From: Bradyrhizobium sp. CB1015
GTDB taxonomy: Bacteria > Pseudomonadota > Alphaproteobacteria > Rhizobiales > Xanthobacteraceae
Length of the DNA stretch: 64,000 nt
NCBI RefSeq assembly: GCF_025200925.1
Contig: NZ_CP104174.1
Span: forward strand, 4,774,001-4,838,000
Direction: 5' to 3'
Below are positions 1,910 through 3,809 of the stretch, in pieces (position 1 is the stretch's first letter; every line of letters begins with the position of its first letter). The notes beneath the pieces are model-generated. The model saw only the letters and a list, made by a program, of their open reading frames with translations, ran no database searches and was not told the DNA's origin. A program made the translations under genes and the position numbers.

Positions 1910-2995
1910 TCAGGCTGACCGCTCGTGCAGCCCTGCGCGCTGCGTGTTGCGGCGGATCTCGACCGCGTCGGCGAGCTGCTCAAGCGTCTTCGCCGTCGTT
2001 GCCCAGTCAATGCAACCGTCCGTGATGCTCTGCCCATACGTGAGCGGCTTGCCCGGCACGACATCCTGTCGACCGGCGACGAGATTGCTCTCGATCATCA
2101 CGCCCATGATGCGGTTCTCACCGTCCGAGATCTGGCGGGCGATATCGGCCATCACCAGCAGCTGGTTCTCCGGCTTCTTGCTCGAATTGGCATGGCTGGC
2201 ATCGACCATCACCAGCGGGGCAACGCCGGATTTGGTCAATTCATTGCAGGCGGCCGCAACGCTTGCCGCGTCGTAGTTTGGCTTGCTGCCGCCGCGCAGG
2301 ATGATGTGGCAGTCCTCGTTGCCGGCGGTCGAGGCGATCGCCGAGCGGCCGAGCTTTGTGACGGCCATGAAATGATGGGGATGCGAGGCCGATTTCACCG
2401 CGTCGGCCGCGATCCGCACATTGCCGTCGGTGCCATTCTTGAAACCGACCGGGCAGGACAGCCCCGACGCCAGCTCGCGATGGATCTGGCTCTCGGTCGT
2501 GCGCGCGCCGATCGCTGCCCAGGAGACGAGGTCGGCGATGTATTGCGGCGTCGTCATGTCGAGGAACTCGGTGCCGGCGGGCAGGCCGAGATTGTTCACG
2601 GCCGCGAGCACGTTGCGTGCGAGCCGCAAGCCCTTGTTGATGTCGAAGCTGCCGTCGAGGTCGGGGTCGTTGATCAGGCCCTTCCAGCCGACCGTCGTGC
2701 GCGGCTTCTCGAAATAGACCCGCATCACGATCTCGAGTTGATCGGCGAGATCCTCGCGCAGTTTTGCCAGGCGCTCAGCGTAGTCGAGCGCGGCCTTGGG
2801 ATCATGCACCGAGCAGGGACCGACGACGACCAGAAGGCGGTCGTCCTGATTGCTCAGGATGGCGTGGATGGCGTTGCGCGCGGCCATCACCACACGCGTT
2901 GCCGTGAGCGTGCGCGGGACCTCTCGCATCACCTCTTCGGGTGTGCTCAGCTCTTTCAGTTCGCGGATACGAAGATCGTCGGTCGTGCTCAGCAC
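1910..2995 (-). CDS. aroG: 3-deoxy-7-phosphoheptulonate (DAHP) synthase, class I
   Basis: 361 residues, full family length. It condenses phosphoenolpyruvate and erythrose 4-phosphate in the first step of the shikimate pathway. Signatures are VVVGPCSVHDP, RVYFEKPRTTVGWKGLINDP, SQIHRELASGLSCPVGFKNG and HIILRGG, which carry the metal- and PEP-binding residues of AroF/G/H enzymes. The start is a GTG with AGGAG 7-8 nt upstream. The 165-nt leader carries an aromatic-rich leader peptide and an intrinsic terminator, indicating attenuation by Phe/Tyr/Trp supply. Which allosteric feedback type this enzyme has cannot be told by eye. Confidence 0.95.
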   Translation of the reverse strand: MLSTTDDLRIRELKELSTPEEVMREVPRTLTATRVVMAARNAIHAILSNQDDRLLVVVGPCSVHDPKAALDYAERLAKLREDLADQLEIVMRVYFEKPRTTVGWKGLINDPDLDGSFDINKGLRLARNVLAAVNNLGLPAGTEFLDMTTPQYIADLVSWAAIGARTTESQIHRELASGLSCPVGFKNGTDGNVRIAADAVKSASHPHHFMAVTKLGRSAIASTAGNEDCHIILRGGSKPNYDAASVAAACNELTKSGVAPLVMVDASHANSSKKPENQLLVMADIARQISDGENRIMGVMIESNLVAGRQDVVPGKPLTYGQSITDGCIDWATTAKTLEQLADAVEIRRNTQRAGLHERSA

Positions 2996-3032
2996 GGCGG
3001 GCTCCTGTCTGTTTTAGAACCTGCCGGCCAAC

Positions 3033-3056
3033 AAAAAGCCGCCAGGTCTGGCGGCT
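3033..3056 (-). terminator. attenuator terminator in the aroG leader
   Basis: On the minus strand AGCCGCCAG (3056-3048), a 2-nt spacer and CTGGCGGCT (3045-3037) form a GC-rich stem immediately followed by TTTTT (3037-3033). This is a canonical intrinsic terminator 38 nt upstream of the aroG GTG. Its 5' arm is also complementary to CTGGCGGC (3109-3102) inside the leader-peptide gene, which gives a mutually exclusive antiterminator. Confidence 0.85.
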
Positions 3057-3079
3057 GTTCGGACGTTTGCTGCAATGTT

Positions 3080-3160
3080 TTAGATTGAGCGCGATCCTCC
3101 CGCCGCCAGCGAGCTGTCGTAGCTAAAGTACCAAAAATAGCTGGTGGCGACGGTGATCAT
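3080..3160 (-). CDS. aroG leader peptide, aromatic-rich (26 aa)
   Basis: A 26-codon frame, ATG at 3160 to TAA at 3080, encodes MITVAT-SYFWYFSY-DSSLAAGGSRSI. Six of the eight residues in SYFWYFSY are aromatic (3 Tyr, 2 Phe, 1 Trp), the three end-products of the pathway started by aroG. GCCACCAGC (3148-3140), just before the Tyr codon, can pair with GCTGGCGGC (3110-3102) with one mismatch. The latter can instead pair with the terminator's 5' arm. A ribosome stalled on the aromatic codons would therefore free segment 2 and block termination. There is no Shine-Dalgarno sequence and the -10 box ends 8 nt upstream, so the mRNA is probably leaderless or nearly so. Confidence 0.85.
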   Translation of the reverse strand: MITVATSYFWYFSYDSSLAAGGSRSI

Positions 3161-3168
3161 GGGAAGGC

Positions 3169-3197
3169 CATATAGCGTGCCGCTGGCGCCTTGTCAC
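3169..3197 (-). promoter_or_regulatory. candidate sigma70-type promoter of the aroG leader
   Basis: On the minus strand GTGACA (3197-3192, 5 of 6 match to TTGACA) is separated by exactly 17 nt from TATATG (3174-3169, 4 of 6 match to TATAAT). The predicted transcription start falls at about 3160-3163, on or next to the leader-peptide ATG. This is inference from consensus matching only. Confidence 0.55.
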
Positions 3198-3230: not shown

Positions 3231-3809
3231 TCAGGTGTTGTTTTTGCGTGCTGCCAGCGCCATGCCGATCAGGGTGGCACCGCCGAACAGCAGGTTGATA
3301 CCGACGAGGACGCCGATCGCCCATTCCGCCGAACTAGGCAGTCCCGTGATCACCATGAACGAGATCGCGATGTCGACGAGGCCCGAGATCAGGAGCCACG
3401 ACCAGCGGCCGCTGAGCTCGCGGCGGTGCTCCAGCGCGTACATGATGGTGGCGACGCCCTCGGCGAGGAAATAGGCGCCGAGCACGATGGTCAGGGTCAG
3501 CACGGCCTGCATCGGCCGGGCCAGCAGCAGCATGCCGGTGAGCACGGCCAGCGCAGCCGAGATCAGCGACCACCAGAAGCCCGGCGTGCTGCGCGCCCAA
3601 TACGTCGCGATCAGTCCGCCGATGCCGCTGATCAGGAACATCCAGCCGAGGAAGATCGCGGTCGCAAGACTTGCGAGCGGCGGCAGGATGAGTGCGGCAA
3701 TGCCGAGGACGGCAAGCAGGATGCCTTCGAACAGAAAAGCTTTCCAATGCGCCTTGACCGCCTGGTTCATCTCGGATTGAAGGCGAGCGAATTCCTCGGG
3801 CGATGTCAT
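3231..3809 (-). CDS. HdeD-family (DUF308) membrane protein
   Basis: 192 residues with about six transmembrane helices in the repeated-pair arrangement of HdeD/DUF308 proteins (for example LAVLGIAALILPPLASLATA and LTIVLGAYFLAEGVATIMYA). Family members are associated with acid resistance in enterics, but in rhizobia the role is unproven. The ATG at 3809 has GGAG upstream with 9-nt spacing. It lies upstream of the aroG leader on the same strand, but the promoter and terminator in between make co-transcription unlikely. Confidence 0.8.
   Translation of the reverse strand: MTSPEEFARLQSEMNQAVKAHWKAFLFEGILLAVLGIAALILPPLASLATAIFLGWMFLISGIGGLIATYWARSTPGFWWSLISAALAVLTGMLLLARPMQAVLTLTIVLGAYFLAEGVATIMYALEHRRELSGRWSWLLISGLVDIAISFMVITGLPSSAEWAIGVLVGINLLFGGATLIGMALAARKNNT

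Follow-up and report, generated by a model that had tools for sequence, protein, structure and literature searches.

How entry into the shikimate pathway is controlled in alpha- and betaproteobacteria is an open point, because TrpR and TyrR were reported to be absent outside the gammaproteobacteria in the accessible part of a survey of 196 proteobacterial genomes (PMC5343134). The stretch of 64,000 nt from Bradyrhizobium sp. CB1015 analyzed here (the window) carries aroG, encoding a type I DAHP synthase, and raises the question how the expression of this gene is adjusted. A preliminary description of the window had proposed an attenuator with an aromatic leader peptide in front of the DAHP synthase gene, and this proposal is supported by the conserved ORF, terminator and competing antiterminator described below.

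The features of the locus are compiled in Table 1. An aromatic-rich frame of 26 codons was indeed found on the minus strand before aroG, as was the terminator with its T run, which a terminator scan located as the same element; the coordinates given previously for ORF, segments and terminator proved correct to the base. The terminated leader RNA is predicted to comprise about 128 nt. In the 1:2 register proposed previously, GCCACCAGC at 3148-3140 faces GCTGGCGGC at 3110-3102 with one A-C mismatch. Directly after segment 2, still within the leader ORF, the Shine-Dalgarno-like sequence GGGAGGA is located at 3101-3095; its GGA is predicted to pair beyond the 2:3 core in the antiterminator fold.

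Table 1. Features of the aroG leader region in window coordinates.
Feature	Position	Strand	Remarks
aroG, type I DAHP synthase	1910..2995	-	361 aa, GTG start; PF00793, E 5.4e-93
Shine-Dalgarno AGGAG of aroG	3002..3006	-	read from sequence
Predicted intrinsic terminator (segments 3:4 + T run)	3033..3056	-	stem -14.7 kcal/mol; terminator scan agrees
Segment 3, GCCGCCAG, common to antiterminator and terminator	3048..3055	-	complementarity, covariation
Leader peptide ORF, 26 codons, MITVATSYFWYFSYDSSLAAGGSRSI	3080..3160	-	kept across the aroG-leader family
Segment 2 (antiterminator 5' arm), CTGGCGGC, within leader ORF	3102..3109	-	complementary to segment 3; covariation; RNA kept in other frames
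Control run TAT TTT TGG TAC TTT AGC TAC (Tyr Phe Trp Tyr Phe Ser Tyr)	3119..3139	-	
Segment 1, pairs upstream of control run	3140..3153	-	register of the preliminary description 3148-3140; minimum-energy register 3153-3145
Predicted -10 element TATATG, 8 nt before leader ATG	3169..3174	-	conserved pattern
Predicted -35 element GTGACA	3192..3197	-	conserved pattern
DUF308 gene, upstream of leader, same strand as aroG	3231..3809	-	

The small ORF preceding aroG is thus rich in codons for products of the pathway. The 400-nt regions upstream of aroG from 45 Bradyrhizobium loci were resampled 200 times each with a first-order Markov model. A short ORF with six aromatic residues within 10 codons appeared in 1 of 9000 resamples and one with at least five in 56 of 9000; the real regions contained six in 40 of the 45 loci and five in the other five. 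On these counts, a chance ORF was rejected. The 45 loci are closely related, some perhaps representing one genome from two collections, and are not independent; therefore, the weight of the chance argument lies on the distant relatives. Of all ORFs of 8-60 codons in the window, two reached at least five aromatic residues in 8 codons, the aroG leader scoring the higher of the two.

We compared 131 loci around aroG relatives of 61-100% identity, scoring as aromatic any short ORF with at least four aromatic residues in 10 codons. Such an ORF together with a terminator was found before 113 of the 131 genes, in alpha-, beta- and gammaproteobacteria; the genera include, among others, Bradyrhizobium, Mesorhizobium, Devosia, Methylosinus, Phenylobacterium, Massilia, Janthinobacterium, Paraburkholderia, Cupriavidus, Xanthomonas and Dyella. 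The remaining 18 loci comprise 13 without the ORF, one of which (L067) offers merely 49 nt of upstream DNA, and five with the ORF but without a terminator by the rule of our script. Loci in which ORF and terminator were not found together include Pantoea, Erwinia, Photobacterium, Enterovibrio, Thauera and Azoarcus. Counted from the leader ATG through the first five T of the T run, the leader measures 116-149 nt in 70 nonredundant loci. At the Leisingera locus (L096), a hairpin with a T run is present which the terminator rule missed.

A covariance model of the leader was built from alignment A1 and matched 241 of 257 genomes of the genus; the 16 genomes without a match coincide with the 16 in which aroG is missing, four of them being 67-75% complete. 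Matches within the genus were to be expected of a model built from relatives; hence, the informative results are the matching absence and the adjacency to aroG. Genomes lacking both aroG and leader include G215, G236 and G262. Of 398 genomes sampled from the phylum, aroG relatives were present in 225 and leader matches at E ≤ 0.001 in 62. At E ≤ 1e-5, 50 matches were obtained: 44 precede aroG on its own strand at a distance of 41-146 nt, one (G560) does not lie beside the listed aroG, and for five no position relative to aroG was found among the matches listed. Sixteen matches weaker than E 1e-5, some of them in genomes without an aroG match, were not used. Within the window's own class, the leader was present in all 23 aroG-bearing genomes (six genera); for most aroG-bearing genomes of the phylum sample, the strict search filters returned no leader match.

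Fifteen distinct cores of the control run were found in 88 of 88 Bradyrhizobium loci (some being the same genome twice). Trp and the second Phe are invariant across the 15 cores, and changes at the other aromatic positions are mostly Tyr to Phe, the reverse, or synonymous; the first Tyr is replaced by Asn or Ser in five cores and the second Tyr by Asn in one. Tyr, Phe and Trp all occur within the ten-codon core in 45/45 Bradyrhizobium loci and in 24/25 loci of other alphaproteobacteria as grouped by us. Outside this alpha group, 25 of the remaining 46 loci contain all three, Trp being optional there. We infer from these codons that one leader peptide may sense Tyr, Phe and Trp together.

Codon choice within the leader is unusual for Phe. 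All 89 Phe codons of the Bradyrhizobium leaders are TTT, whereas in five genes of the window TTT accounts for 5 of 46; in nonredundant leaders the TTT:TTC ratio is 176:44 versus 56:354 in the aroG genes that they precede. The corresponding shift of Tyr codons is slight (81:92 versus 150:250). With a single tRNA-Phe, selective charging of isoacceptors would not account for the bias toward TTT. Such charging was advanced by Elf and Ehrenberg as an explanation of codon bias of this kind (PMC1183508, accessible text).

Pairing of the RNA segments was examined with 66 of the 70 nonredundant sequences (alignment A1) and 500 shuffles. For the terminator 3:4, 96.3% of the cells were paired and four pairs had changed on both sides, a value reached by 1 of 500 shuffles; for the antiterminator 2:3, the respective values were 87.2% and five pairs (0 of 500 shuffles), with the caveat that kin sequences may beat shuffles without any structure. 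Sliding the partners by 1-3 columns reduced pairing to 18-57% for 3:4 and to 16-53% for 2:3. As many pair types as in 2:3 were obtained in 84 of 500 shuffles, and the outermost pair of 2:3 is open in 34 of 65 sequences; therefore, the conserved core consists of the inner pairs. When single loci were compared with 100 shuffles each, no more than 5 shuffles matched the 2:3 complementarity in 93 of 113 cases; it was weak in the other 20. The alignment is conserved at the control codons, at segment 2 and at the terminator. Hence, the aromatic codons and the competing stems, on whose presence in close relatives the preliminary proposal had been made to depend, are both conserved in Bradyrhizobium and beyond.

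The segment 2 motif was found in the same frame of the ORF at 101 of 116 loci; the other 15 include some poor motif calls. At six loci (L023, L033, L034, L036, L042 and L054), the RNA of segment 2 (e.g. CTGGCAGCCGAAGG) is plainly kept with the ORF in another frame, L033, L034 and L036 possibly going back to one event and L054 possibly reflecting decay. Retention of this RNA across frames fits an antiterminator acting at the RNA level and not a functional peptide tail. Taken from the sequences, a putative intrinsic terminator is located between the leader ORF and aroG, and complementarity, covariation and the RNA kept across frames point to a mutually exclusive antiterminator.

The classic layout of 1:2, 2:3 and 3:4 pairings proposed for this leader was borne out by covariation for its latter two elements; the 1:2 pairing did not hold in the register given, which at the homologous columns of the family was paired to 51.5% as compared to a shuffled mean of 54.3%. 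In the window, another register folds better, the predicted minimum-energy structure joining 3153-3145 with 3108-3100. When any 1:2 pairing was allowed in a search of each locus, 25 of 68 loci were significant (p < 0.05), namely 9/9 from Bradyrhizobium and 16/59 others, many of the latter being Burkholderia relatives. Minimum-energy folding without a ribosome predicted segment 2 to be paired upstream in 45/45 Bradyrhizobium and 42/59 other loci, and 3:4 to form in 45/45 and in 56/59 other nonredundant loci, respectively, both being counts without a shuffled control. A 1:2 partner seems to be common, its position and letters being clade-specific.

Transcription and translation of the leader probably start at or next to the same place. 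By pattern, TGACA and TATA[T/G] were detected in 45/45 Bradyrhizobium loci separated by 17 nt in 44 loci and by 18 nt in one, and in all 45 the -10-like hexamer lies 6-8 nt before the first ATG. A generic promoter scan reported no promoter at this site. Hexamers resembling a -10 element peak 4-8 nt before the ATG in the 59 non-Bradyrhizobium loci, with at most 8 of 59 at any one distance. No Shine-Dalgarno 4-mer was present before the leader ATG in any of nine nonredundant Bradyrhizobium leaders; among 68 nonredundant loci, it preceded the leader in four as compared to aroG in 61. From the short gap between -10 element and ATG and the scarcity of Shine-Dalgarno sequences, it is likely that the leader is translated leaderless from a transcript starting at or next to the ATG.

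The effect of a stalled ribosome was modeled with the ribosome footprint set to A site +12. With the A site on codons 7-12, the predicted probability of 2:3 was 0.99 before segment 4 exists and 0.65-0.97 thereafter. On the last Tyr codon (codon 13), 3:4 was favored (0.63 versus 0.21), and from codon 14 on 3:4 was predicted to form. In the model, the first five control codons thus lead to antitermination and positions past the run to termination. Stalls at codons 1-6 likewise gave 2:3 (0.54-0.96 in the model); therefore, specificity would come from the clustered pathway codons lying in the run alone. Across 68 loci, 404 of 413 control codons were predicted to hold the ribosome front off segment 2. 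The control codons are accordingly placed such that, by the model, a ribosome stalled on them would free segment 2, the last Tyr of the window being an exception.

From these data the following mechanism can be proposed. The transcript would begin with the leader ATG or right beside it, and ribosome loading would not require a Shine-Dalgarno sequence. With Tyr-, Phe- and Trp-tRNA charged, it would pass the aromatic codons and cover segment 2; as this segment lies within the ORF upstream of the stop codon and is covered by the ribosome, 3:4 would form and transcription would end near 3033. If one of the three tRNAs is uncharged, the ribosome would stall on the aromatic run and leave segment 2 free, 2:3 would form first, and RNA polymerase would read on into aroG. 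Without a ribosome, segment 2 would fold onto upstream RNA and the terminator would form, so that termination would be the default.

Other explanations of the conserved elements were considered. The hairpin might be just the terminator of the DUF308 gene and the aromatic ORF a chance frame; this gene lies upstream on the same strand and is present in 44 of 45 Bradyrhizobium loci. However, it was found in none of 86 non-Bradyrhizobium loci, of which up to 1.5 kb upstream was examined, and 68 of these keep ORF and terminator. A conserved promoter-like pair furthermore separates the gene from the leader, and the aromatic run and the covariation of 2:3 contradict such an origin, to which we attach hardly any probability; as a full account it is refuted by the conservation. 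The terminator/antiterminator logic by itself would also fit a ligand-binding riboswitch or a T-box-like element controlling aroG, with the ORF being incidental. However, neither the window leader nor 20 diverse loci gave an Rfam match at the gathering threshold, and it is the codon run that the alignment conserves along with segment 2 and the terminator; such an element is extremely improbable. A known Rfam element is ruled out, no match exceeding the gathering score; at E ≤ 1, the window leader matched RNAI alone, at 19 bits where 47 are required.

The leader RNA or its peptide might also act mainly in trans, attenuation being a by-product. Sinorhizobium rnTrpL/peTrpL provides a model for this: according to the accessible text of two papers (PMC7298713, PMC10117765), the attenuator sRNA rnTrpL is leaderless and also functions in trans, and the aroG leader looks leaderless, too. 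However, the loci with a differing frame lose the C-terminal part of the peptide and keep the RNA, and leader and aroG are missing together, as a switch in cis predicts. A predominant action in trans is therefore judged very unlikely; a role in trans in addition to the cis switch may exist. Taken together, we regard the element as a ribosome-mediated transcription attenuator of aroG with a probability of about 90%, as judged from comparative sequence evidence.

Ribosome-mediated attenuation is a known kind of control, the E. coli attenuators pheL-pheA and trpL-trp operating with competing hairpins; the breadth of the aroG leader is unusual. The layout differs from that of E. coli in that segment 2 lies within the ORF, 19 nt before the stop codon, and in that the exact 1:2 pairing depends on the clade. 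The closest precedent is aroR-aroF of Corynebacterium glutamicum, for which Neshat 2014 is the original paper. Several of the following comparisons draw on the accessible text of the papers cited. As with the aroG leader, a peptide (Phe-Tyr-Phe) precedes a DAHP synthase gene in C. glutamicum, the leader of aroF having been predicted in PMC4046766 (PMC11802643, PMC4046766); limitation of Phe was described to raise read-through, Tyr availability having no effect (PMC11802643). In contrast to the aroG leader, aroR belongs to another phylum, precedes aroF and has no Trp codon named, the two being compared by description alone. In E. coli pheL-pheA and trpL-trp, control codons for pathway products likewise precede the genes (PMC11802643).

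The rhizobial trpL/rnTrpL/peTrpL leaders resemble the aroG leader in their aromatic codons, terminator and leaderless ORF, whose start codon forms the 5' end of the RNA in S. meliloti (PMC7298713, PMC10117765). They differ in having Trp control codons and controlling trpE(G) (PMC7298713), whereas the aroG leader combines codons for Tyr, Phe and Trp and acts on the common pathway. The trpL peptide of B. japonicum is given as MSTAVAPARLWWRTS (PMC7298713), and leaderless attenuator leaders were also reported in Streptomyces lividans (PMC8079986). No proteobacterial aroG leader peptide was found among the matches listed from the PMC literature, as far as their text was accessible. The main text of Naville and Gautheret 2010, as accessible, names neither aroG nor DAHP, a listing in its supplementary tables being possible; the accessible main text of the B. 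japonicum start-site paper (PMC4842269) likewise does not name aroG.

In ten Bradyrhizobium genomes (L178-L187), a second, recoded copy of the aroG leader was found before a DUF1127 gene; these are the real leader copies among 13 genomes of the genus with a second model match, and the genome of the window has a single match. The extra matches in G424, G357 and G356 (L188-L191) were rejected as leaders, being hairpins beside other sequences; L188-L190 are weak matches on a hairpin after the end of a short ORF unrelated to aroG, an ending which we take to be PEP-CTERM-like. The ten copies keep the promoter-like pair, the ATG, the region of segment 2 and the terminator. Their run SYFWYFSYD is changed to HRFGRWTHR (six loci), HRFGRITHR (two), HRFGRFTHR (one) or RRFWHFTHR (one), and in several copies one Leu codon of segment 2 now encodes Arg (CTG to CGG), with the loss of one antiterminator pair. 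The duplicated part includes about the first dozen codons of aroG: the copies are followed by an ORF of 113-118 aa that in most cases starts like aroG (MPSTTDDPS...) and ends like DUF1127. A DUF1127 scan of two of the ten proteins gave E values of 2e-9 and 6e-10. When 23 chosen genomes were searched with the protein, strong matches were restricted to the four known carriers of a second leader, and five other genomes matched weakly within the DUF1127 part alone.

Synonymous changes at the Arg and Phe codons together with a nearly constant His/Arg pattern in the alignment of the copies hint at selection on the codons of the recoded run. The aroG leader could be a copyable module with rewritable specificity, the duplicate being a working attenuator that senses Arg/His supply and controls the arginine-rich DUF1127 protein. 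We put this forward tentatively and think it rather unlikely; the plain alternative is a decaying duplicate. If the duplicate works, it would be an attenuator changed in both signal and target.

A class II DAHP synthase (PF01474) is encoded elsewhere in the same genome (G000:C1:4172617-4173930, L132). Within the 400 nt upstream of its gene, no short ORF exceeds two aromatic residues in 10 codons. Given this second enzyme, aroG is not the sole gate to the pathway.

For many genera, rhizobia included, the aroG leader offers a directly testable answer to the question how entry into the shikimate pathway is controlled. With codons for Tyr, Phe and Trp side by side, a single switch could follow the scarcest of the three products, and the optional Trp codon outside the alpha group provides a natural series on what is sensed.
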